A stretch of DNA of 23,191 bases, taken from positions 1 through 23,191 of IMG/VR virus record IMGVR_UViG_3300047474_000384, one strand, 5' to 3'. Numbering within the stretch: position 1 is the stretch's first letter; each line of letters begins with the position of its first letter. Below are positions 7,675 through 21,915 of the stretch, one piece after another. The notes beneath the pieces were generated by a model. That model was not told the origin of the DNA. It saw nothing but the letters and a program-made list of their open reading frames with translations, and ran no database searches. This DNA is from a virus. A program made the translations under genes and the position numbers.

Positions 7675-8032
7675 GCCTGTAGGTTGTGTCCTTATTGTCG
7701 GTAATAGCGTTAATAGGAAATTTCTTACCTTTTAGCTTACCACGAAGTTTATTTGGAATGAGAACCGGACGCTTTCCATCCACCCCGTCAATCTTTGCAT
7801 AAACCCAACGCGGGTTAGGAGCTTCGTGAACATAAGTTCCATATATTATGCTTGGAGAAAATTCTGGCAATTCAAGGGCTAAAAAGATTTTTTTAACAGC
7901 GTCTTGCGTAAACCAAGTATTCTTTCCCCTTCCGCTCCAGTCCTCATCTATAAGTTTTGTTTCTTTAATATGAAGCAGGTCGTTTACGCTGACATCAAGG
8001 TCTTTAGCTAAATTAGTAATTTTGGTTTTCAT
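7646..8032 (-). CDS. HTH-containing small protein between terminase and portal
   Basis: This encodes 128 residues. The first 50 (KITNLAKDLDVSVNDLLHI...WFTQDAVKKIF) look like a small helix-turn-helix of the kind found in MerR-like or IF2 N-terminal domains. The second half is basic and beta-rich (IPNKLRGKLKGKKFP). A strong SD (AAAGGAGG, six bases before ATG) sits inside the terminase 3' end, and the start overlaps the terminase stop as TAATG. It is therefore probably well expressed. Position suggests a packaging accessory or late regulator, which is inference only. Confidence 0.75.
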   Translation of the reverse strand: MKTKITNLAKDLDVSVNDLLHIKETKLIDEDWSGRGKNTWFTQDAVKKIFLALELPEFSPSIIYGTYVHEAPNPRWVYAKIDGVDGKRPVLIPNKLRGKLKGKKFPINAITDNKDTTYRHAALTGYNL

Positions 8033-9645
8033 TAATATCCTCCTTTATTAGGTCTTGTGGCTTGCAGTCCGGTTTTAGAAACATAATCAATTCCATAGAC
8101 AGCCGCGTAACGTAGGCAGTCAATTGGGTCTTTCCACGGATGGTCCCGTGTTTTTCCATCATAATGTTGCATAGATGATATGGTGTTCTCTAGCTCGTCA
8201 GAGATGTAAAAGTGTGGGCGATTCTGGGCATCAATCGGCTTCTGCGGATTGTAGGACAGCTTGTCTTGAATGGCTTGAAGACCAGGCTCCTCGTCGATGC
8301 CTGGAGCCGGAATCATAATTAGCCCTTGGTCTTCTAGATCGCTAATGTAATCGCTTTGACCGCCGTGCTCTGCGCTGTATTTGTTGGCTCCCATGCGAGG
8401 GTCAATCAGGCGCGTCATTATCTTCTCTTGCCCCTCAAGCTCGCGTATAACCTCCGCGTAGTCACGAACCCCATAGCCTAGCCGCTGGCGACACGCTTCT
8501 CCTGCTGCCCACTTGCCGTTCTTTTCCTCTGCCCACTTGCCATACAGGATTCCCGGCCACTCACGATACACATACCAAGTGTCTGTAGCATCCACCCCAA
8601 TCCACGTAATGAACCAAGGCTTGCTGCCAGCAGGGTCAACCACCATGTATAGGGTGCAGTCCTCCAGCTTCTCCTCTACCTCTGCATGTGGTATAACATT
8701 TACGTCTGGGTTAAAGCGAGGGAACTTGCTAGCCATTGCCGACGTAGGCACCCCATAAAGGGCTGTGAGCGCGTAATCATCGTCTCCCTTAGCCACACAC
8801 TGCTCTAGGAGGCTTTCGTAGCCACTCCAAGGGTTGTCCTTGCTGTGGAAGTAGCTAATGCCTGTGTTCATCCGCTCGTTGTGCTGGACGTATGGCACCG
8901 TGCGCGGCGTTGTTAGCCCCTCCTCTACGTGCTTGCTCTCTACGGTGCTAGCGGCGTTGCGGTAGTAGCGCACCGTCTCCGTCTCCCCATCCTTGGGTGT
9001 AAAGGAAATGAGTAGCTTGGCATTGTGCGTAGCGTTACGCAGCATGATGCGGTCAATCATCTCCATGCCCAGTAGGTATTCGTCTAGCCAACAACCAATG
9101 TTGTCTACCGTGGGCTCTGGGCTTCCCAACTCCATACCCTCAAGAATCGTGTCGTCCTGTTGGTATTGCGTGTAGGTTTTGAAAACAATCTGCGTCTTGT
9201 TAGGAAATATAGCCTTCTTGTCGCTAAACCCGTTCTTATAGGTGTAGCTAATACTGCCATCGTTCACCTTCTTAACTCTGTATTCCGCCGGAAGCCATTC
9301 CCATACAGCGCGTTGCTGCACCAACACAGAAATCTCATGCGTCTGCGCGAAGCAGAATATCAACCCGTTGGGGTTTTCTATTGCTGCTTCCACAATCTTG
9401 CGTGCCGAGTAAGATGTCTTGCCAGAACGATTAGCCCCAAGAAGCAGGGTGGTGCGGAAGGTGCTTAGTAGCTCGTCAGCGTATTTCCAATGGGGCAAGC
9501 TGAAGCCATACCTATAGGGATCACGCGCCGCATTCTCAATAGCCTCATGGTAGATGCGATGAAGCTCCACAAGCTGTGCAGGCTCCATCCTAGCCATCTC
9601 TTCGTCACTAGGGGGCTTTAATAGCTTATGGTCCTGCCACTTCAT
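8032..9645 (-). CDS. terL: Large terminase subunit (packaging ATPase and nuclease)
   Basis: This encodes 537 residues. The ATPase domain shows Walker A GANRSGKT at 70-77, Walker B IGCWLDEY with D188 and E189, and a motif III-like LLISFTPKDG at 211-220. The nuclease domain has the expected acidic triad: D337 in VVDPAG, D415 in LIDPR, and the D506/D509 pair in KDPIDC near the C-terminus. The enzyme powers DNA translocation into the prohead at the portal and cuts the concatemer. Length is normal for the family. Its start overlaps the stop of the upstream zincin gene (ATGA), and its stop overlaps the next start. The mode of end formation (headful or cos) cannot be judged from sequence alone. Confidence 0.97.
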   Translation of the reverse strand: MKWQDHKLLKPPSDEEMARMEPAQLVELHRIYHEAIENAARDPYRYGFSLPHWKYADELLSTFRTTLLLGANRSGKTSYSARKIVEAAIENPNGLIFCFAQTHEISVLVQQRAVWEWLPAEYRVKKVNDGSISYTYKNGFSDKKAIFPNKTQIVFKTYTQYQQDDTILEGMELGSPEPTVDNIGCWLDEYLLGMEMIDRIMLRNATHNAKLLISFTPKDGETETVRYYRNAASTVESKHVEEGLTTPRTVPYVQHNERMNTGISYFHSKDNPWSGYESLLEQCVAKGDDDYALTALYGVPTSAMASKFPRFNPDVNVIPHAEVEEKLEDCTLYMVVDPAGSKPWFITWIGVDATDTWYVYREWPGILYGKWAEEKNGKWAAGEACRQRLGYGVRDYAEVIRELEGQEKIMTRLIDPRMGANKYSAEHGGQSDYISDLEDQGLIMIPAPGIDEEPGLQAIQDKLSYNPQKPIDAQNRPHFYISDELENTISSMQHYDGKTRDHPWKDPIDCLRYAAVYGIDYVSKTGLQATRPNKGGY

Positions 9646-10596: not shown

Positions 10597-10656
10597 TCCC
10601 AATGCGCCCTTTTGTATTTTTGGTGTATACCCCTAGGTGATGAATCATAACACACA

Positions 10657-10689
10657 CCCCCCCGTCGAGCCTGACCCCCGCCCCCCCCC
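10657..10689 (-). other. Clustered C tracts (G-quadruplex-capable on the minus strand)
   Basis: The plus strand carries runs of 7, 5 and 9 C (10657-10663, 10675-10679, 10681-10689). The minus strand therefore has G9, C, G5, an 11-base linker and G7. The long runs can supply four G tracts. Long homopolymers are otherwise absent from this window apart from the A tracts near 4921-4936. Confidence 0.45.
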
Positions 10690-10717
10690 TGCTGGGTTAA
10701 CGTTCAGCAGTTAACGT
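10689..10717. repeat. Hairpin and duplicated GTTAACGT boxes
   Basis: CTGCTG (10689-10694) and CAGCAG (10705-10710) can pair around a 10-base loop that contains GTTAACGT (10696-10703). A second GTTAACGT lies at 10710-10717, 14 bp downstream. The GTTAAC core is itself palindromic. This looks like tandem protein-binding sites in the divergent control region. Confidence 0.45.
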
Positions 10718-10892
10718 CTAACAAGATGTTACAGCATCCCATGGCGAGTTGGCATGGTTTCGCACTCTTGCAAGCCACTCTCTTTTAGCACGGAGGGGGA
10801 GAGGGGGAGGTGAATCATTTGCCAGCCCTCCACTAAATTGAGGTATTCACCCTATTGTATTGCTTGACGCTTTGGTGTAGGGTGTAGGGGTT

Positions 10893-11723
10893 ATGAATAA
10901 AAAAACACTATCTCTTATAAACTCCACCGTCCTCGAAGCCTTAGAATCCGGGGTGAATCCATGGCGTAAGACTTGGAGGAACATTCACGATCACGGGATG
11001 CCCCATAATCTAAAGAGTAAACGCAATTACTCCGGCGCAAACGTAGTTATCTTGGGGTTACAGGAGGCCCCGTGTAACGCTTGGGTGACTTATAAACAGG
11101 CTGTTGAGCTAGGCGGAAACGTGCGCAAAGGGGCGAAAAGCTCTGTTGTGTATTTCTGGCAATTTTTAGAGAAAGAGGAGGATGGGGTGAAACGGAAAAT
11201 CCCCATGGTGCGCACTTATAGGGTCTTTAATGCATCGCGTGACTGCGATGGATTAGAGCACCTGATTGAGAAGGCGAAAGGCGAAGTAGGGGAATCCCGC
11301 CCCGTTAACGCTCTTGCGGATTATATTGAAAGGGAAGGCATCGGACTGTCCCATGGCACGAATCAACCCTGCTACGTGCCCATCGTTGACCAAATACAGA
11401 TGCCGCACGAATCGGCCTTTGATAATCCCGACCACTATCAGGGTGTCTTGGCCCATGAGGCGATCCATTCCACGGGGCACGAGTCGCGGCTAGGGCGATT
11501 AAAAGAAAGGGCAGCGTTCGGCGGGGAGAATTACGCATTCGAGGAACTAGTTGCGGAACTTGGATCGTGCTATGTTTGCGCCCAAGTTGGAGTTGAGCCG
11601 GACTTTGATAATTCTGCTTCCTACCTTAAGTCATGGTTGACCGCACTGAAAGACAATGACTCTTGGCTAGTATCGGCTGGCGGGAAAGCCCAAAAGGCAG
11701 CGGATTTCATCTTTTCCGCCTAG
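10893..11723 (+). CDS. ardC: ArdC-type antirestriction protein
   Basis: This encodes 276 residues. Residues 1-130 match the ArdC N-terminal ssDNA-binding domain (NPWRKTW at 22-28, RNYSGAN at 44-50, AWVTYKQAVELGG near 63-75, GAKSSVVYFWQF at 80-91). Residues 140-276 form a zincin-like domain with HEAIHSTGH at 188-196 and a downstream YAFEELVAELG carrying E217, E218 and E222. On plasmids ArdC protects incoming single-stranded DNA from restriction. In a phage it may act early against host defence, which fits its place as first gene of the rightward side. AGGGG sits very close to the ATG. An intrinsic terminator follows 28 bp after the stop, so it may be a separate transcription unit. Confidence 0.88.
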   Translation: MNKKTLSLINSTVLEALESGVNPWRKTWRNIHDHGMPHNLKSKRNYSGANVVILGLQEAPCNAWVTYKQAVELGGNVRKGAKSSVVYFWQFLEKEEDGVKRKIPMVRTYRVFNASRDCDGLEHLIEKAKGEVGESRPVNALADYIEREGIGLSHGTNQPCYVPIVDQIQMPHESAFDNPDHYQGVLAHEAIHSTGHESRLGRLKERAAFGGENYAFEELVAELGSCYVCAQVGVEPDFDNSASYLKSWLTALKDNDSWLVSAGGKAQKAADFIFSA

Positions 11724-11751
11724 GTTGCGCCGATTCTATCCCCTCACAAGG

Positions 11752-11780
11752 GCCAGTCCTTCGGGGCTGGCTCTTTTTTT
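11752..11780 (+). terminator. Intrinsic terminator after ardC
   Basis: GCCAGTCC (11752-11759), TTCG loop, GGGCTGGC (11764-11771) form an 8-bp stem with one G-U pair, followed by TC and seven Ts. This is a textbook Rho-independent terminator. Confidence 0.9.
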
Positions 11781-11784
11781 GTGC

Positions 11785-11802
11785 CTCTCTCTCTCTCTCT
11801 CT
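11785..11802. repeat. (CT)9 microsatellite
   Basis: Nine CT units lie directly after the ardC terminator in non-coding DNA. They could vary in length between isolates; no function is visible. Confidence 0.8.
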
Positions 11803-11884
11803 CCCTTATGGAGGGGGTGATGTTGCGGCGGCCCGTGGTTTGCGCTCCCATCTGATAGCCTTTTGGGGGCAAATCGGCGCAAAA

Positions 11885-11977
11885 ATGGGTAATGGACCCT
11901 ATTCACAGGACGGGTCGATTACTGTACTCTGGGGCCATCAACAGACCGTCAAATCCGGTCCAATCATAAAAGGATAA
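11885..11977 (+). CDS. Possible 30-residue ORF before the glycosylase-like gene
   Basis: ATG 11885 opens a frame encoding MGNGPYSQDGSITVLWGHQQ and ten more residues, ending seven bases before the next ATG. The composition is protein-like, but no SD sequence precedes it. The same DNA also contains a GACCG/CGGTC hairpin near 11945-11961 that might be a leader element. The remaining 11803-11884 bases show nothing else. The call is weak. Confidence 0.25.
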   Translation: MGNGPYSQDGSITVLWGHQQTVKSGPIIKG

Positions 11978-11983
11978 TAAATC

Positions 11984-12613
11984 ATGAGAAAACCAAACCC
12001 AAACCGCGCCCTTACGAAAAACATTTCCGCTATGCTCCAACTTGCCAGCGTTGCCGATATTCAAGACGGAATCGAGTGGTACGATCGAGCCGGTCGGCTT
12101 GGCCAACGTCTCGCCGAAACTTACGGGTGCACGATAGAACAATCGGTAGGAGTGATTGCGGCCCTGAGCCCGAATAACAAGTGGCAGCGCAATTGCCAAG
12201 ACGCGGAATCCTGCATTAAGGCGTGGTCACTCGGACGGGACGTAATGGACATCGTCTGCTGCACGTATCCCGCCATGAAGGAAAAGGCCAAACGGATTCT
12301 TGAGCTTAACGCACCCTCACGGGAGGATGTTGCGGCGATACTCAACGGACGTAAAATCTCCGCGTTTGCTCTGTCGATCCTGGGCGAAGCTTCCGCCGTC
12401 TGCGTCGATGGCCACGCATTTGCCATATGGCTGGGCGAGCGAGTTCCGACCACCAAAACGCCAAGCCTCGGCAAAAAGCTTTACTCCCGAATATCAGCCG
12501 ATTATTGCACCGTCGCAAAGCGTTCGAAGGCGATTTGCGGCCACGATTTAACCGCCGCGCAAGTTCAAGCCGTGACCTGGGTAACTTACCGCCGTATTTC
12601 CGGCATTAAATAA
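11984..12613 (+). CDS. HhH-GPD-like (endonuclease III-like) DNA glycosylase candidate
   Basis: This encodes 209 residues. VIAALSPNNKWQRNCQDAE (57-75) parallels the LLSAQATD...VNKA segment of endonuclease III. MKEKAKRIL (98-106) parallels its yntKA-I motif. NGRKISAFALSILGE (121-135) followed by VCVDGHAF (139-146) parallels GVGRKTANVVLN...VDTH. K124 and D142 would occupy the positions of the catalytic Lys and Asp. If so, it could excise a base and possibly cut the abasic site. The C-terminal iron-sulphur cluster of endonuclease III is absent. The family is also seen in phages as an uncharacterised protein. The alignment is by eye, so the fold is inferred, not proven. AAGGA lies nine bases before ATG. 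Confidence 0.55.
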   Translation: MRKPNPNRALTKNISAMLQLASVADIQDGIEWYDRAGRLGQRLAETYGCTIEQSVGVIAALSPNNKWQRNCQDAESCIKAWSLGRDVMDIVCCTYPAMKEKAKRILELNAPSREDVAAILNGRKISAFALSILGEASAVCVDGHAFAIWLGERVPTTKTPSLGKKLYSRISADYCTVAKRSKAICGHDLTAAQVQAVTWVTYRRISGIK

Positions 12614-12623
12614 CACGATTGGA
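12593..12623 (+). repeat. 31-bp imperfect direct repeat, copy 1
   Basis: This copy (CGTATTTCCGGCATT...) matches 12853-12883 at 26 of 31 positions. It spans the stop codon of the glycosylase-like gene. Confidence 0.7.
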
Positions 12624-12646
12624 AACACACACACTATATACCTAAA

Positions 12647-12883
12647 ATGTTAACTAGGATTGACACGATACACAGACAGCCAAACGGCACCTACAGGGAC
12701 CAAGGCGGCAGAGCGTTAGACATAAAGCAGGTTTTTAACGCCGGGAGGCTTTATTGTTTTTCTGGCAAAAACCACCCGCTGATTGTCACAGAATGGAATG
12801 TTGCCCGTGCAATGTTCTTTGTAATAGGAGAATTTTACCCGACTCGTATCCCCGTATTTTCGGAATCAAATAACACAATTTGA
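12647..12883 (+). CDS. Small protein of unknown function
   Basis: This encodes 78 residues (MLTRIDTIHRQPNGTYRD...). It is beta-rich with a Tyr/Phe-containing core (AGRLYCFSGKNHP, WNVARAMFFVIGEFYP). It resembles a small soluble domain, with no membrane segment or clear motif. No SD sequence is present; a TATATA lies 12 bp upstream. Its last 31 bases repeat the end of the upstream gene, so this gene may have been inserted by or arisen from a duplication. Confidence 0.65.
   Translation: MLTRIDTIHRQPNGTYRDQGGRALDIKQVFNAGRLYCFSGKNHPLIVTEWNVARAMFFVIGEFYPTRIPVFSESNNTI
12853..12883 (+). repeat. 31-bp imperfect direct repeat, copy 2
   Basis: This second copy (CGTATTTTCGGAATC...) lies 260 bp after the first and ends exactly at the TGA stop of the 78-residue gene. 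The two copies are read in different frames, so the similarity is at DNA level. Confidence 0.7.
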
Positions 12884-12892
12884 CCAAACCCG

Positions 12893-12979
12893 ATGAAAAA
12901 GAATCTTGAAGAAATCGCCGGATCAATCACCTTTTTGCTCATGCTTGCGGCCCTTGTTTGGCTCATGCTGGCAATGTGA
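12893..12979 (+). CDS. Small single-span membrane protein
   Basis: This encodes 28 residues. A charged start (MKKNLEEIAGS) is followed by a hydrophobic helix ITFLLMLAALVWLMLAM that reaches the C-terminus. It could be a small inner-membrane effector, a lysis accessory or a coding fossil. It sits ten bases after the previous stop in the same direction. No SD sequence is present. Confidence 0.5.
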   Translation: MKKNLEEIAGSITFLLMLAALVWLMLAM

Positions 12980-13008
12980 ATGCAACCAAAACCATAAAGA
13001 GAAACAAG

Positions 13009-13230
13009 ATGAAGCCACCCATACCAACCCCCGAGCCACCGCAAGCCCCGTTTAAGCGGCCACAATGGACAAAACAAGAGCAAGACGAGGCAATGGCCGA
13101 ACATGCCGCCAAATGGCGCGAGAACGTGCTTGAACAGGAAGCAGAGCGCAACGCAGAGCGCGAGCGCGTTTCCGCCCTTGGCCAAGTGTTCGCGGAGATG
13201 CGCGACATTTACGGGAAGGGAGGGCTCTGA
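13009..13230 (+). CDS. Pro-rich and coiled-coil small protein
   Basis: This encodes 73 residues from ATG 13009. An upstream TTG frame would overlap the membrane gene and is disfavoured. The start is Pro-rich (MKPPIPTPEPPQAPFKRP), followed by a long Glu/Ala/Arg-rich helix (EQDEAMAEHAAKWRENVLEQ) and a short tail. No family is recognised. It ends six bases before the stop of a converging minus-strand gene. Confidence 0.65.
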   Translation: MKPPIPTPEPPQAPFKRPQWTKQEQDEAMAEHAAKWRENVLEQEAERNAERERVSALGQVFAEMRDIYGKGGL

Positions 13231-13236
13231 AGCGCA

Positions 13237-13416
13237 TCAATGCCAGAGGGTGACGATATTGCCCTGCTTCACGATGCCCTTAATGGCCCTGCCCTCGCTC
13301 CCGTAGTCGTAGCCCGTAACAGGGGGACGCTTGGGGGTGGGGCTAGGCTTAGGCTGGGGCTTTTTAGGGGCGGCCTTAGCGGGTCGTTCTACATTTCCGA
13401 ATAAATCAACAGACAT
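13237..13416 (-). CDS. Antisense-oriented small basic protein (function unknown)
   Basis: This encodes 59 residues from ATG 13416 on the minus strand, inside an otherwise rightward block. The plus strand has no credible gene here. The sequence is MSVDLFGNVERPAK, then a Pro/Lys linker (PKKPQPKPSPTPKRPP), then a compact segment GYDYGSEGRAIKGIVKQGN ending TLWH. An ordered start, flexible linker and ordered end are what a real small protein shows. It is strongly basic and might bind nucleic acid. No SD sequence is present. Confidence 0.6.
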   Translation of the reverse strand: MSVDLFGNVERPAKAAPKKPQPKPSPTPKRPPVTGYDYGSEGRAIKGIVKQGNIVTLWH

Positions 13417-13421
13417 AAATC

Positions 13422-13460
13422 ATGAATACAGACACAGACACAGACGAGCAAGGGCAAAAC
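13422..13460 (+). repeat. Duplicated gene start, copy 1 (39 bp)
   Basis: It begins ATGAATACAGACACAGACAC and equals 13577-13609 apart from one additional 6-bp CAGACA unit. Confidence 0.85.
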
Positions 13461-13580
13461 GCCACCCGCCAAGAGCTCGAGCAGCTTGCAAATCAACTAA
13501 AAGCAACGGTGCTGGAGCTCATGGAAGCCCGCGCCACCATTGAAAACCTAAAATATCACCTGAACGGATACAAAAAATGA
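13422..13580 (+). CDS. Small coiled-coil protein, first of a duplicated-start pair
   Basis: This encodes 52 residues. It starts with a Thr/Asp repeat (MNTDTDTDEQGQN), followed by a heptad-like helix (RQELEQLANQLKATVLELME, then ARATIENLKYHL). The start is nearly identical in DNA to that of the next gene. The stop overlaps the next start (ATGA). It is likely a small oligomerising protein of unknown role. Confidence 0.6.
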   Translation: MNTDTDTDEQGQNATRQELEQLANQLKATVLELMEARATIENLKYHLNGYKK

Positions 13581-13609
13581 ATACAGACACAGACGAGCAA
13601 GGGCAAAAC
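13577..13609 (+). repeat. Duplicated gene start, copy 2 (33 bp)
   Basis: It matches copy 1 at 13422-13460 except for one missing 6-bp unit. Downstream sequences of the two genes are not alike. Confidence 0.85.
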
Positions 13610-13750
13610 ACGCCCCCTACTGCCGAGGCACGCCAGTGCCTTTACCTCAGCGGCAAGTTGCATGAGGCCAGACAGCAAATCAAGGCACTAGAAGCCGATC
13701 TTGCCCTAATGGGTGAGGGGCTGAGGTATCTAAAGGAGGGGAAACGATGA
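13577..13750 (+). CDS. Small coiled-coil protein, second of a duplicated-start pair
   Basis: This encodes 57 residues. MNTDTDEQGQN is shared with the preceding gene, then the sequence diverges (TPPTAEARQCLYLSGKLHEA) into a helix with heptad spacing and a basic end. ATGA overlaps join it to both neighbours. The DNA for its last residues contains the strong SD (AAGGAGG) of the next gene. Function unknown. Confidence 0.6.
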   Translation: MNTDTDEQGQNTPPTAEARQCLYLSGKLHEARQQIKALEADLALMGEGLRYLKEGKR

Positions 13751-14070
13751 GCGCGACTATTCACGCAAACAGCCTCGAGGCGTATCATGACGGCGAAATG
13801 AGCCTATTCACAAAGCGAGAAAGCGAAATTCTTTCCGCTTTTGATCGATTCGGCGTGCTAACGGATCGCGAATGCCTCGCCGTTCTTAACTATCCCGACA
13901 TGAACGCCGTCCGGCCTCGTATAACGGAGCTAATCCAAAAGGGCGTTTTGTCGGAAGAGGGTGAAACGAAATGCCCAGTAACCCAGAAGACCGTGCGCCT
14001 TTGCAAGATCGCGCCTCTCGACAACGGCGACTACCTGCCGGGCTTTAATGCGGGAGGCATCGCGATATGA
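13747..14070 (+). CDS. Winged-helix DNA-binding protein
   Basis: This encodes 107 residues. Residues 20-90 show a winged-helix layout: FTKRESEILSAFDRFG, LTDRECLAVLNYPDMNAVRPR as helix-turn-recognition helix, then ITELIQKGVLSEEGE leading into a beta wing. It has the strongest SD of the rightward block (AAGGAGGGG before ATG) and overlaps the previous stop. It is probably a phage regulator or replication accessory. The GTTAACGT boxes or the dyad near 10580 could be its targets, but nothing links them directly. Confidence 0.65.
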   Translation: MSATIHANSLEAYHDGEMSLFTKRESEILSAFDRFGVLTDRECLAVLNYPDMNAVRPRITELIQKGVLSEEGETKCPVTQKTVRLCKIAPLDNGDYLPGFNAGGIAI

Positions 14071-14396
14071 GCTTTGCAAGTATCAATCACGAATCGGCGG
14101 AGCGAAGCTTTATTAAGTTGTTCGACTTAGTATTGCCCCGGGAGCTTGCCCGTATAGAGCGGGAAGAACAGGCCATGCGGGAAATGAAGCAGGCTATTGC
14201 TGACACGCAAGAGCTTTACAAGGAGAAGCCTCCGCGCCCTGTCTTCGTCCCGCATGAGTGGACACAAGAGGAGGTCGATTTGTGTGTTTCCATGAGGGAC
14301 GACGGAAATCCTTGGGGATGCGTTTCGCAGACGCTTGGCATAAGCATCCCAGCGTGCAAGGCCCGTTACTGGCGGCTGAAGAAGAAGGGGAAATAA
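14067..14396 (+). CDS. Myb/SANT-like DNA-binding protein with N-terminal helix
   Basis: This encodes 109 residues. The N-terminal half is a charged helix (ELARIEREEQAMREMKQAI). The C-terminal 45 residues read EWTQEEVDLCVSMRDDG, then NPWGCVSQTLGISIPACKAR and YWRLKKKG. These are three helices with spaced aromatic residues like a Myb/SANT or GcrA-like DNA-binding domain. GGGAGG lies nine bases upstream. It overlaps the winged-helix gene by ATGA, so the two DNA-binding proteins are probably co-produced. Confidence 0.6.
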   Translation: MSFASINHESAERSFIKLFDLVLPRELARIEREEQAMREMKQAIADTQELYKEKPPRPVFVPHEWTQEEVDLCVSMRDDGNPWGCVSQTLGISIPACKARYWRLKKKGK

Positions 14397-14620
14397 TGTG
14401 TGCCGTGAGCTACAAGGACATGACCTTCTGCCAGGAATCCACTTGCGCCAGGTTCGGCAAGAACTGCTCTCGCTCCCTCACCCCAGAAGTGAAGGATGCG
14501 GCGAAGCGGTGGTGGGGATCGGATGAAGCACCGATAAGCGTGTTCACTGGTCGCCCAGATTGCTACGAGGAGGGCGAGATATGCAGAAAGCCTCTTGACA
14601 ACCGAAAGTCTGTGTTATAA
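14396..14620 (+). CDS. Cys-rich small protein (probable zinc-binding)
   Basis: This encodes 74 residues from ATG 14396, which overlaps the previous stop (TAATG). A longer in-frame start at 14258 would overlap the Myb-like gene almost fully and is rejected. Cys lie at 2, 12, 17, 24, 56 and 63 (FCQESTCARFGKNC, PDCYEEGEIC), suggesting one zinc site. AAGGGG serves as SD. The TAA stop lies inside the -10 box of the following promoter. Confidence 0.7.
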   Translation: MCAVSYKDMTFCQESTCARFGKNCSRSLTPEVKDAAKRWWGSDEAPISVFTGRPDCYEEGEICRKPLDNRKSVL

Positions 14621-14622
14621 TG
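14595..14622 (+). promoter_or_regulatory. Sigma-70-like promoter with extended -10
   Basis: TTGACA (14595-14600) and TATAAT (14616-14621) are separated by 15 bp, with TG one base before the -10 box. The perfect boxes compensate for the short spacer. The ten bases TGTTATAATG also occur at 2680-2689 and 4892-4901 on the other strand. It directly precedes the structured leader. Confidence 0.7.
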
Positions 14623-14629
14623 ATTGCAA

Positions 14630-14719
14630 CAGTGGATCAATCACTCAATATCTGACTTTCCCTTTCCCTAGGGGTAGACGGCCATTCAATGATTGATCCA
14701 TTGGTGGCCGTCTTTTTTT
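14630..14719 (+). ncRNA. Putative attenuator leader RNA with competing stems
   Basis: Segment A (TGGATCAATCA, 14633-14643) pairs perfectly with A' (TGATTGATCCA, 14690-14700); outward extension to 14630/14703 gives about 14 bp. Segment B (AGACGGCCA, 14676-14684) pairs perfectly with B' (TGGCCGTCT, 14705-14713), which is followed by a T tract. The order is A-B-A'-B', so the two stems interleave. With only four bases between A' and B' they are unlikely to coexist. A-A' would therefore act as antiterminator to the B-B' terminator. Alternatively the whole is a short independent RNA of about 90 nt. Confidence 0.55.
14676..14719 (+). terminator. Intrinsic terminator of the leader
   Basis: The 9-bp B-B' stem has a loop of about 20 bases that holds A', and B' runs into seven Ts (14713-14719). 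The GC-rich stem plus T tract is convincing. The large loop is unusual and is explained if the loop is meant to pair elsewhere. Confidence 0.75.
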
Positions 14720-14789
14720 CGGCCATCCGCACAGCCCGCACAGCGTTAACGGGTAGTAGGGCTTCGATAGACAGGCGAAGACAAGGTTA

Positions 14790-14816
14790 CTAGGAGCGGC
14801 GCAATTCCGTGCCTAG
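14790..14816 (+). promoter_or_regulatory. Hairpin occluding an SD and GTG start
   Basis: CTAGG (14790-14794) pairs with CCTAG (14812-14816), and GCGG with CCGT inside, around CGCAATT. The stem contains the SD AGGAG (14792-14796) and the GTG at 14809 of the next ORF. An upstream TAGTA (14754-14758) can pair with TACTA (14788-14792) and would compete with it. Other hairpins lie at 14762-14780 and 14826-14845. Confidence 0.4.
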
Positions 14817-15144
14817 CGTAAATGGCGTTGGTTTGGGAACCAACGGGTCAGTGATTGTTGACGACGGCCAAACTTGGACTTACCAGCCCGAGACGATCAC
14901 AAACGCACAACCAGCAACTCATCCGCAAATGAGCTGGAAGCGACTCTCTCTCCTACTCTGGGGTAGGGGGGAGGTCTGTCCGCTTCCCAACAATCTAAGC
15001 CGAAATGAGCATGAGCGACCAACGGGAGCGGCGAACAAAAGAGTGTTTTCTTCTTGGGCGTTTACGCCCCCTAGTGAAACAAATAAATTAACTAAAAGAA
15101 TAGACTTATTGAGACAAGTTTCTCAATTAAACATAGCAAAATAG
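14809..15144 (+). CDS. Possible leader-controlled ORF (function unknown)
   Basis: This encodes 111 residues from GTG 14809 with AGGAG twelve bases upstream. The first 45 residues (SVNGVGLGTNGSVIVDDGQT, WTYQPETITNAQ) look like real protein. The part after LSLLLWGRG is less convincing and the DNA there forms hairpins (CCTAC/GTAGG near 14953-14968, GGGCG/CGCCC at 15056-15069). The alternative is that 14720-15193 is mostly structured non-coding DNA. Apart from the features listed, nothing else was seen in this stretch. Confidence 0.35.
   Translation: MPSVNGVGLGTNGSVIVDDGQTWTYQPETITNAQPATHPQMSWKRLSLLLWGRGEVCPLPNNLSRNEHERPTGAANKRVFSSWAFTPPSETNKLTKRIDLLRQVSQLNIAK
15108..15127. repeat. Inverted repeat upstream of the 113-residue gene
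   Basis: ATTGAGA and TCTCAAT are perfect 7-bp arms around CAAGTT. It lies in A/T-rich DNA 67 bp before ATG 15194, so it could be an operator or an mRNA hairpin. Confidence 0.4.
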
Positions 15145-15193
15145 GGTAAACACCCCATTTACACGGGAGGAGAAATAGTCCATAATAGGCGCG

Positions 15194-15535
15194 ATGAAAA
15201 ACACAACATACTACGAGTGGGTTTTAGAACCTATAGACAAATACGGCGACATCATTGACCCGCTTTTCGAGGAGAAGCTGTCTAGCCACTGCAACTGCCC
15301 CCACGGCCTCCCCCACGACGACGAGGCGGTCAGCTACGATTTGGCACTCGTCCGGCGCGAGGGTAATGAATACGAGGGGGAAACCTACCGCGAATACGCC
15401 TACATCCGCCAAGACGGCACCCTGCCTGAGCGATTCATCGTAGAGAACCCCATGTCGTATCGGGTTCCGAAGAGGTTTCACGCAGAGCTTAAACGCCACC
15501 GCGAAGCCGTTCAAAAAATTCTATCAGCACTGTAA
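15194..15535 (+). CDS. Small acidic protein of unknown function
   Basis: This encodes 113 residues. It starts MKNTTYYEWVLEPIDKYGDI and continues with a CNCPHGLPHDDE stretch that could bind metal. A beta-rich middle (YDLALVRREGNEYEGETYREY) and a C-terminal basic helix follow. Proteins with this beginning occur in other phages near replication genes, without known function. GGAGGAG lies 22 bases upstream, too far to be an ordinary SD. It precedes the exonuclease gene by 13 bp. Confidence 0.75.
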   Translation: MKNTTYYEWVLEPIDKYGDIIDPLFEEKLSSHCNCPHGLPHDDEAVSYDLALVRREGNEYEGETYREYAYIRQDGTLPERFIVENPMSYRVPKRFHAELKRHREAVQKILSAL

Positions 15536-15548
15536 CCACAAACACACA

Positions 15549-16316
15549 ATGAGCCAACACTTCTACGACCTTAACGGCAAACCATGCCACACACAGACGA
15601 TTAAGAGCGGCCCCAACAAGGGGAAGTCTCGCAACACTACCAAAGGCGACGCCAAGCGCAAGGGGCTATTCCCCTCTGTCTCAGCCTATACGGGCATGAT
15701 GGCAAAGGAATGGCTCATCCCTTGGAGCATTAAGGGTGTGCTGGACATTGCCTACGACCAACCCGCTATTGCCGGAGAGGATCAGGACGGATGGCGCAAA
15801 TCCATCACCCAGAAATGGGACAAGCTCAAAATGGAGCCAGCCGAGCGAGGCACAGCCCTCCATGCGGCCATTGAGGACTATTACACGGCGGAATCATGGA
15901 CTGTCTCCGAGGATGATTACCATTTCTGTATGCCTGTCATTCACAAGCTGGAGGGCTTAGGGGTGGAAGTGGAGCACGCCGAGAAGGTGGTGGTGAATGC
16001 GGCGATGGGATACGCTGGCACCGCCGACATCATCGAGAAGACGGGGCAGATTGATGACTTCAAGAGCAAGGATTTCAAGGGGAAGGACACGGTTATTCCC
16101 TCGTTCGATCATTGCATGCAGCTTGCGGCCTATTTTGTTGCGGCGAATGGACACAACGACTTCCTCCCTTGCCGCAACATCTATTTTTGCCGCAACGAGC
16201 CGGACAAGGTGATGGTGAAGGAATGGACACCGGACGATTTGACAAAAGGATGGGAAGCCTTTCAGGCTTGCCTCACGCTCTACCGCCTCACAACAGGATT
16301 TGACGCAAGACAATGA
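15549..16316 (+). CDS. PD-(D/E)XK exonuclease (RecB/Cas4-like)
   Basis: This encodes 255 residues. Nuclease motifs run in order: RGTALHAAIEDYY (100-112) with G101 and H105, GYAGTADII with D160, QIDDFKSKD with D170 and K172 as the D-x-K core, and QLAAYFVAA (191-199) with Q191 and Y195. This is the usual set of phage PD-(D/E)XK exonucleases acting in recombination or end resection. The N-terminal 50 residues are Lys/Gly-rich. The leader is CA-rich without an SD. Its stop overlaps the next small gene by ATGA, and the helicase gene follows, placing it in the replication/recombination operon. Confidence 0.82.
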   Translation: MSQHFYDLNGKPCHTQTIKSGPNKGKSRNTTKGDAKRKGLFPSVSAYTGMMAKEWLIPWSIKGVLDIAYDQPAIAGEDQDGWRKSITQKWDKLKMEPAERGTALHAAIEDYYTAESWTVSEDDYHFCMPVIHKLEGLGVEVEHAEKVVVNAAMGYAGTADIIEKTGQIDDFKSKDFKGKDTVIPSFDHCMQLAAYFVAANGHNDFLPCRNIYFCRNEPDKVMVKEWTPDDLTKGWEAFQACLTLYRLTTGFDARQ

Positions 16317-16492
16317 AAGACATCGGAACAAACATACAATTCGGCCAGCACGTTCGCATTCCAGACGGGGACGTTGAGGGTGTTGTCATCGGCATCAACC
16401 TAGACGAGCACGGGGAGCCTGTGTTCACGATTGATTGCGGCACGGACGGCATCTATGACCCCATGCACGAGCATGAAATAACACACGCATGA
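16313..16492 (+). CDS. Small beta-rich protein between exonuclease and helicase
   Basis: This encodes 59 residues with ATGA overlaps at both ends, strong evidence for translation. The sequence (IQFGQHVRIPDGDVEGVVIG, INLDEHGEPVFTIDCG) suggests a small SH3-like or KOW-like beta barrel. The end is His-rich (PMHEHEITHA). It could assist the helicase or nuclease; that is inference from position. Confidence 0.75.
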   Translation: MKDIGTNIQFGQHVRIPDGDVEGVVIGINLDEHGEPVFTIDCGTDGIYDPMHEHEITHA

Positions 16493-17844
16493 AGGAACAG
16501 GAACCACCACACAGTGCCGAAGCGGAGAGATATTTACTCTCCATGATATTCCAAGACGGGGACTATCTCAATGAGGCCATTAGCCTTGGCCTAAGCCCTA
16601 AGCATTTCTATGCGCCAGAGCACGCCACGTTATTTGATGCGGCGAAAGAATCATTTGCCATCAACGGGGACATTGTGATTGAGGAATTTATTTCCGACAT
16701 CACGAAGAGCGGGAAGCTGGAGGCGATTGGCGGCTTGTCCAATTACGTTGACATCACCAAGGAGCTTTTCTCCTCGCGATCCGTTAAGTATTGGGCGGGA
16801 GAGATTAAGGACAGATTCTACCGCCGCAGGGCATTGGAAATGTGTCAGAATGCTTCCGTTGCGGCAGCAGACTTAGAGACGGACATTCACACCGCCCTAG
16901 CCAGCATCAGCAATCGCTCCCTAGACATCATTAATGAGCAGGAGAAGCCCGTGACGCTGGCTAATGCGGCAGATGATGCCCTTGCCCTCATTGAGCGCAT
17001 TGAGTCGGGAGACATTATTCAGGGCGAGCTAGGAGTGCCCACTCCCATTGAGTCCATCAACAAGTTCCTTGGATCTCCCAGACCAGGCGAGCTGATTACG
17101 ATTGCTGCCCGTCCTGGTGGGGGCAAAAGTTCGCTTATGCGTGGGCTGGTGCGGCACATTGCCGAACACTTTGGCCGGACGCTGTTGTTCTCACGGGAGA
17201 TGCCAATGACGGAGCTTGTGACGATATTTGCACAAGAAGCCTCAGCCGTGTCTTGGCGTGAAGTGCGGGACGGCACCTGCCTGCATGAACAAGTGGCAAA
17301 ATTCAAGAAAGGGTTGGCCCGTGTTAAGGGACTAGGACCGCGCCTAATGATTAACGACAGGGACAGGACGGTGGACCAGCTAATTGCCCGTATTGCCGCC
17401 GCATCACGCTCTGAGAACCCCCTGAAGGCCGTAGCCGTTGACTACCTCCAACGCTATGACCCGCAGCAAGAGCGAGGAGAGACAAGGGACATGGCTATTG
17501 GACGCTTCACAATGTCCCTCAAGGATGCGGCGATGCAGCACAATGTCCCTGTGTTCCTTGGGGCGCAGATTGGACGAGGATCAGAAAGAGAGACACGCGC
17601 CCCACGCTTGTCCGACCTACGGGAGAGCGGCAACATTGAGCAAGACTCGGATCGCGTTTGGTTCATGCACATCCCAGAGCAGACGCCAGAAGGTGCGCCA
17701 CAGGATGCTAACGACCAAGGGCTTCCCGTCATTTACGTTCAACTCCTACAAGCCAAGGGGCGAGGGGATGGACTGGGAAAGATTGACCTAGCGTTCCACC
17801 GCCGCATCACGACGTTCGGCGAATGGCGGGACTGGATTAAATAA
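16489..17844 (+). CDS. Replicative DNA helicase, DnaB family
   Basis: This encodes 451 residues. A DnaB N-terminal domain spans 1-110 (SAEAERYLLSMIF, FYAPEHATLFDA). The RecA-type motor follows, with Walker A ARPGGGKSS at 207-215, Walker B VAVDYLQRY with D318, FLGAQIGRG (356-364) and LSDLRESGNIEQDSD (374-388), the DnaB-type arginine and Q region. It unwinds the fork as a hexameric ring. The length is normal. No primase domain is fused, so priming is by another protein. The start overlaps the preceding gene (ATGA) and has no SD of its own. A new promoter follows the stop. Confidence 0.95.
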   Translation: MKEQEPPHSAEAERYLLSMIFQDGDYLNEAISLGLSPKHFYAPEHATLFDAAKESFAINGDIVIEEFISDITKSGKLEAIGGLSNYVDITKELFSSRSVKYWAGEIKDRFYRRRALEMCQNASVAAADLETDIHTALASISNRSLDIINEQEKPVTLANAADDALALIERIESGDIIQGELGVPTPIESINKFLGSPRPGELITIAARPGGGKSSLMRGLVRHIAEHFGRTLLFSREMPMTELVTIFAQEASAVSWREVRDGTCLHEQVAKFKKGLARVKGLGPRLMINDRDRTVDQLIARIAAASRSENPLKAVAVDYLQRYDPQQERGETRDMAIGRFTMSLKDAAMQHNVPVFLGAQIGRGSERETRAPRLSDLRESGNIEQDSDRVWFMHIPEQTPEGAPQDANDQGLPVIYVQLLQAKGRGDGLGKIDLAFHRRITTFGEWRDWIK

Positions 17845-21186: not shown

Positions 21187-21915
21187 ATGACAATGACGGA
21201 CGAACAAATTGCGGCGAAAATACCCGTTGGGCATTACCGAGTGGATGAAGGCGAATACAAGGAGGGAGATCTGGCAGTATTCACCACGGCATCTAAATTG
21301 GGGTTCAGCCCTGTTTCCTACACCCATGTGGGTTGCAAGATTTGTGCCCCGTATGTAGTAGCCCGTCCCATGAAGGGCTACAAGCCAGACCCCACCACCG
21401 TTAAGGGGTGGCTAGAAACACTCCCTGACGGCTATCGAGAGCGCGCGATCAGTCAGGGTGATAAAAATTGGCTGGACGATATGTGCGGGAATCTTTCGGA
21501 CGCCATTCATGATTTCCAAGAATGGGACACCACGGAGGAGGGTGCAGATTTCTGGGAGAAGATGGCTCAGTGGTCTATTGATCGCGAAGGACTGCCCCCG
21601 CTACCGGAACAAGAACCGCTGAACCCCGCAAGCGACACTCCCTCCCTGTTCCCCACAGGCGCAGAAGCACGCAAGGAATACCCCGTAGGCACGTTCATTC
21701 GTGACTATTTCCCCCACGCTATTGCGGCCCTAGCCCACCACAGCTACAAGGCGCAGCAACAGCATGGACCGGCCACCAATGGAGCCCCTATGGAATGGCT
21801 GAAGGACAAGAGCGTTGGCGACGGCAATCAAATGATGCGTCATTTCATGGAGCGCGACAACGTAGCTACGGCTTGGCGAGCATTAGAAATCCTTGAACGG
21901 GAGCTGACGAAATGA
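21187..21915 (+). CDS. Protein with C-terminal dATP/dGTP diphosphohydrolase-like domain
   Basis: This encodes 242 residues. Residues 1-150 are unassigned, with acidic and Trp-rich segments (GDKNWLDDMCGNLSDAIHDF). Residues 165-242 read YFPHAIAALAHHSYKAQQQH, then GAPMEWLKDKSVGDGNQMMR, HFMERDN and ATAWRALEILERELTK. This resembles the all-alpha phage dATP/dGTP diphosphohydrolase-like (MazG-related) domain with its W-x-K-S, M-R-H and A-W-R-L-E-E pattern. Such enzymes trim specific dNTPs, sometimes in phages with altered bases. The activity is inferred from partial pattern memory. Confidence 0.55.
   Translation: MTMTDEQIAAKIPVGHYRVDEGEYKEGDLAVFTTASKLGFSPVSYTHVGCKICAPYVVARPMKGYKPDPTTVKGWLETLPDGYRERAISQGDKNWLDDMCGNLSDAIHDFQEWDTTEEGADFWEKMAQWSIDREGLPPLPEQEPLNPASDTPSLFPTGAEARKEYPVGTFIRDYFPHAIAALAHHSYKAQQQHGPATNGAPMEWLKDKSVGDGNQMMRHFMERDNVATAWRALEILERELTK

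Follow-up and report, generated by a model that had tools for sequence, protein, structure and literature searches.

In the HK022 put and lambda nut sites, as in the element described here, a structured RNA immediately follows the early phage promoter. The put RNA of HK022 suppresses distant terminators by contacting polymerase, whereas the present structure is in competition with the terminator of its own leader. To our knowledge, phage leaders that carry their own antiterminator have rarely been described beyond the temperate model phages. Two of the closest described systems, the CI RNA of satellite phage P4 and IsrK, couple a short RNA with termination or read-through from a single promoter (PMC4825925).

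The locus analysed here resembles the P4 CI RNA/seqA-seqC immunity system in combining a phage promoter, an untranslated leader and complementary segments that, here putatively, govern premature termination, and in having a short RNA of the same leader as a possible effector (PMC4825925). It differs in that its complementary segments lie inside one 90-nt unit, whereas those of P4 flank a processed RNA (PMC4825925). An RNA of the P4 CI type acts in trans on the nascent leader; here, the complementarity is seen within one transcript. Unlike P4, the phage has no recognised lysogeny genes, and we found no Rfam or sequence link to either P4 CI or IsrK. As with IsrK of prophage Gifsy-1, one promoter could give both a short terminated and a longer read-through RNA, but IsrK opens translation of its long isoform, whereas 475 nt without a gene follow here, and the two share no sequence similarity (PMC4825925). 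Classical attenuators such as the B. subtilis trp leader also combine an intrinsic terminator with a second helix that excludes it (PMC3913778); this locus departs from them in that we identified neither a ligand or protein site nor a leader peptide or controlled structural gene. In its logic, the element is best called an orphan terminator/antiterminator attenuator of putative function.

Results

The window, by which we mean the whole stretch of DNA analysed, is an IMG/VR record of a bacterial virus taken at its full 23,191 bp, possibly a genome fragment. Head genes, comprising the terminase (8032–9645) and its neighbours, occupy the minus strand; early and replication genes, including an exonuclease (15549–16316) and a DnaB-like helicase (16489–17844), occupy the plus strand. 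The nearest named phage, C75C1, has 37% terminase identity. Immediately upstream of the element on the plus strand lies a small, cysteine-containing ORF of 74 aa (14396–14620) with distant homologues in IMG/VR. Preceding it, a small protein encoded at 14067–14393 carries a weak Myb-like DNA-binding match at its C-terminus (E 1.6e-4, which falls short of the Pfam cut-off) and is a candidate regulator adjoining the element.

A −35 hexamer, TTGACA (14595–14600, plus strand), and an extended −10, TGT-TATAAT (14613–14621; hexamer TATAAT at 14616–14621), match the consensus perfectly, and no second such pair occurs in the window when both strands are searched with spacers of 14–19 nt. The perfect promoter described in an earlier note on this DNA is therefore present and unique, with one correction: its spacer of 15 nt is suboptimal relative to the optimal 17 nt and to the 16–18 nt expected of sigma-70 promoters. 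A consensus promoter scanner restricted to 16–18 nt spacers reported TTGACA/AATGAT here instead. In sigma-70 promoters, an extended −10 may compensate for poor spacing. The TAA stop codon (14618–14620) of the 74-codon ORF sits inside the −10 box, as the note had also observed. From a start placed near 14628 on the basis of the promoter, an end set by the terminator and the fold z-scores, we predict an RNA of approximately 86–92 nt (14628–14719, plus strand).

This predicted RNA contains two interleaved helices, all of whose segments lie on the plus strand. Pairing and folding together define segment A (14630–14643), the 5' strand of a putative antiterminator, and segment A' (14690–14703), its 3' strand; sequence and folding define segment B, the terminator 5' arm AGACGGCCAT (14676–14685), and segment B', the 3' arm GTGGCCGTCT (14704–14713), and a T7 tract at 14713–14719 completes the intrinsic terminator. 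The A:A' helix spans 14 bp with one G-U pair (14630–14643/14690–14703) and includes 11 bp of unbroken Watson-Crick pairing (14633–14643/14690–14700). B:B' comprises 10 bp (nine Watson-Crick and one G-U) followed by the seven Ts. Both sets of dimensions agree with the earlier description of 11 perfect base pairs extending to about 14, and of nine perfect base pairs plus seven Ts. The upper stem-loop of the terminator is A' itself with its flanks (14687–14703, CAATG-ATTGATC-CATTG), a feature that the note does not mention; this gives a 10-bp lower stem and a 5-bp upper stem with the U tract directly after, as expected of the G+C-rich hairpin of a Rho-independent terminator. Because 0 nt separate A' from B', the complete A:A' and B:B' helices are mutually exclusive, which upholds the claim that the stems cannot easily coexist. 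An ordinary pseudoknot would not accommodate both, since A' ends where B' starts and, by helix geometry, a zero-length loop would have to span 14 bp. A small central hairpin around CCCUUUCCCUAGGGG (14659–14675) fits both states in the predicted folds.

Past the T-run lies a second copy of B, CGGCCAT (14720–14726, plus strand), which forms a 7-bp hairpin with B' in the predicted fold of 14628–14760. This pairing would stabilise the read-through RNA, and we count it in favour of a leader function.

The competing structures are near-isoenergetic optima. State 1, consisting of A:A' (14 bp) and central hairpins, has a predicted free energy of −31.2 kcal/mol; state 2, consisting of the terminator (10 + 5 bp), hairpin A and the central hairpin, has −29.9 kcal/mol, a gap of approximately 1.3 kcal/mol. 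As in an attenuator, a mutually exclusive helix of similar stability would break the terminator. The 100-nt segment starting at 14626 (plus strand) has a fold z of −6.26, the lowest among 1,848 segments on both strands. When the 48 nt upstream were dinucleotide-shuffled with the terminator held constant, the minimum free energy structure disrupted the terminator in 2 of 3,000 shuffles, and a complement to the terminator of at least 11 nt arose in 4 of 3,000. We examined 10 strong terminators from the window and from fetched phage DNA; an upstream complement of at least 7 nt occurs in this one, where it measures 11 nt, and in none of the other nine.

As the RNA is grown stepwise, A:A' becomes the optimum at 14695, ahead of the emergence of B'. 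We also ran a simple stochastic folding simulation in which one base is added per T units of arbitrary time, and in which pseudoknots and kissing interactions are ignored. The terminator and A:A', respectively, were reached in 27 and 7 of 48 simulations at T = 150, in 13 and 18 of 36 at T = 700, and in 5 and 14 of 20 at T = 2,500, such that the share of A:A' grows with the time allowed per nucleotide. Because these time units are uncalibrated, the simulation shows only that the sequence is poised, and says nothing of the state that prevails in a cell. A control simulation with A reversed was discarded because new pairings confounded it.

Each of the two copies is itself palindromic: hairpin A (14631–14645) reads AGTG-GATCAAT-CACT and hairpin A' reads AATG-ATTGATC-CATT, and their 7-nt centres are exact complements. 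There are 97 hairpins of this 4-bp/7-nt shape in the window, and A and A' are the sole pair within 150 nt with fully complementary loops. Between the two copies, the arms show a symmetric G-C to A-T change that keeps both palindromes and weakens A:A' (one G-U, one C.A mismatch). The change amounts to one event between two copies, and is thus a hint, not proof, that the palindromes matter in themselves, be it in RNA as hairpins or in DNA as operators. One RNA-binding protein is unlikely to read both loops in the same sense, since they are complementary and not identical. A third operator-like palindrome, AATGATTGCAACAGT (14619–14633, plus strand), is possible but weak; it fits ANTGATTGNNNCANT and overlaps the −10 box, with a chance of ~0.05 within the element at the window-wide rate. 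The element has two good palindromic sites of this type and one weak one, and no other 0-mismatch site occurs in the window.

The next gene on the same strand starts at 15194, 475 nt beyond the T-run. It is the first convincing downstream gene (15194–15535, plus strand; 113 aa, function unassigned), supported by its coding score and by weak phage homologues. Only a weak promoter match lies directly before it, and it could therefore depend on read-through. The intervening stretch (14720–15190, plus strand) is apparently non-coding, with no coding signal in any frame. This gap of ~470 nt lies amid an otherwise dense early region and contains B-like copies, CGGCCAT at 14720–14726 and GACGGCCA at 14863–14870; it may be an origin or encode a longer RNA. 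A conserved larger RNA there was rejected on its fold z of −1.7.

Within the element, we found no plausible leader peptide, the sole frame being a 7-codon GUG frame (14632–14655) without a Shine-Dalgarno sequence, and no visible ligand pocket or aptamer-like domain except one small central hairpin. The earlier note's proposal of a regulated attenuator or riboswitch is supported in part: the design is that of a two-state attenuator-type leader (−31.2 versus −29.9 kcal/mol), whereas a riboswitch finds no support. The Rfam 15 covariance models likewise gave no match in the whole window at gathering scores, consistent with the absence of a known riboswitch class; local E-value matches below the cut-off were judged chance (for example mir-1288, far under its own cut-off).

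DNA similarity searches of 50,697 phage records returned nothing notable, and exact-pattern searches (with A..A', the terminator loop, and promoter plus A) were used in looking for homologues of the element, of which none was found in phage records, IMG/VR viral contigs or GTDB genome contigs. Contigs L010 and L030 show the A..A' spacing in unrelated sequence without a comparable promoter or terminator, and L035 and L036, which are near-identical and apparently one phage type, match the promoter plus GGATCAATCA without A' or such a terminator; all were judged chance matches. Relatives of the phage itself were recognised by helicase (97–99%) and terminase (79–99%) identity, and all of their fetched contigs end outside ~10.68–16.14 kb. 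In relatives ~96% identical across most of the window, the contigs end near 10.65 kb or begin near 16.14 kb, and the element, lying within the stretch that they leave uncovered, therefore falls in a strain-variable or poorly assembling part of the genome. This pattern suggests that 10650–16144 is a hypervariable early region. In homologues of the upstream ORF (L004–L007), the sequence 3' of the gene differs; a motif common to L004 and L005, TTGACAAC, proved to be Leu-Asp-Asn codons of the ORF. Elsewhere in the contig, no complement exceeds 14 nt; that length is reached, with perfect pairing, between 14697–14710 and 21770–21783, the latter inside a coding gene (shuffle p ~0.012). As a trans target this site was rejected, because relatives L002 and L003 do not keep it intact.

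Discussion

The reading that we favour, and to which we give a little less than an even chance, is that the element is a phage terminator/antiterminator leader that yields a short RNA, a conditional intrinsic terminator. A sigma-70-type promoter would produce an RNA whose 5' segment A can capture the upper portion of the terminator hairpin, A', and so block closure of B:B'. From a start at ~14628, some rounds of transcription would give a terminated RNA of ~90 nt and others would read through, depending on whether A:A' pairs before B' emerges. This choice would shift with the speed of polymerase and with whatever occupies A or A', be it a protein, an RNA or the same RNA in a second copy acting via the 7-nt loops: sequestering A would favour termination, and stabilising A:A' would favour transcription onwards to the operon at 15194. 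The simplest candidate regulator is the short RNA itself, by self-pairing, because no extra component is needed. The terminated 90-nt RNA would, through its A/A' loop, pair with a nascent copy, withhold A and force termination, a scheme we consider quite unlikely; if true, a single short transcript would sense its own read-through, regulate it and be its target. Against the leader reading stand the lack of a homologue, the 475 nt without a gene, the 15-nt spacer, and A/A' palindromes that would be equally expected of operators.

A promoter and terminator of its own, with no gene behind for 475 nt, could also mark, in line with the short trans-acting RNA that the note offered as an alternative, a stand-alone phage regulatory RNA of ~90 nt with an ordinary terminator, whose mature fold would be A:A' and which would act in trans on messages of host or phage or on a protein. 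Such an RNA would be a long, very stable hairpin once released, and its strain-variable location is usual for host-takeover genes. It would not need a self-disrupting terminator, however, and its best complement, at 21770–21783, is the one not intact in L002 and L003; we therefore regard this explanation as possible but somewhat unlikely. The palindromes raise a different prospect, which the note did not consider: A and A' would be DNA operators, a 15-bp palindrome, A(A/G)TG-N7-CA(C/T)T, present twice in inverted orientation. A dimeric repressor would bind them, and possibly a third copy over the −10, to control the promoter, the RNA complementarity being a by-product. Consistent with this, both copies are palindromic, the symmetric arm change spares the palindromes at the expense of A:A' pairing, the third site overlaps the −10 box, and the gene at 14067–14393 just upstream has its weak Myb-like match. 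By contrast, that match is under the Pfam cut-off, and a third site as weak as this one has a chance of ~0.05 at the window-wide rate. The 7 nt at the centre of the palindrome are perfectly conserved where operator centres usually vary, and one copy is concentric with the terminator hairpin and better suited to an RNA role, so that we hold operators to be unlikely.

The complementary loops would also permit hairpins A and A' to coexist and kiss, with A aiding the terminator, or the RNA to dimerise. Their status as the sole such pair within 150 nt in the window and a permissive linker of ~30 nt speak for this, but hairpin A on its own is weak (−2.0 kcal/mol) and the geometry is automatic for complementary palindromes once A:A' exists, making kissing very unlikely. 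Finally, the promoter and the terminator might each be ordinary and lie side by side by coincidence, with A:A' matching by chance. Conservation was seen in none of the databases searched, as this would predict, but the frequency of a competing helix (~0.001 by shuffles) and the extreme fold z-score render coincidence highly improbable.

If the favoured leader works as proposed, it would give an uncultured phage a bistable switch of very small size, set in its variable early region. Because its two states and its terminated product are exactly predicted, it is open to testing in vitro with purified polymerase alone.

Two minor features of the plus-strand region deserve mention. A putative anti-restriction protein (phrog_7245) is encoded at its head (10893–11723). 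Further along, a 27-bp exact direct repeat (13434–13460 and 13583–13609) occurs at the starts of two adjacent small frames, each beginning MNTDTD, and is probably a gene-start duplication.
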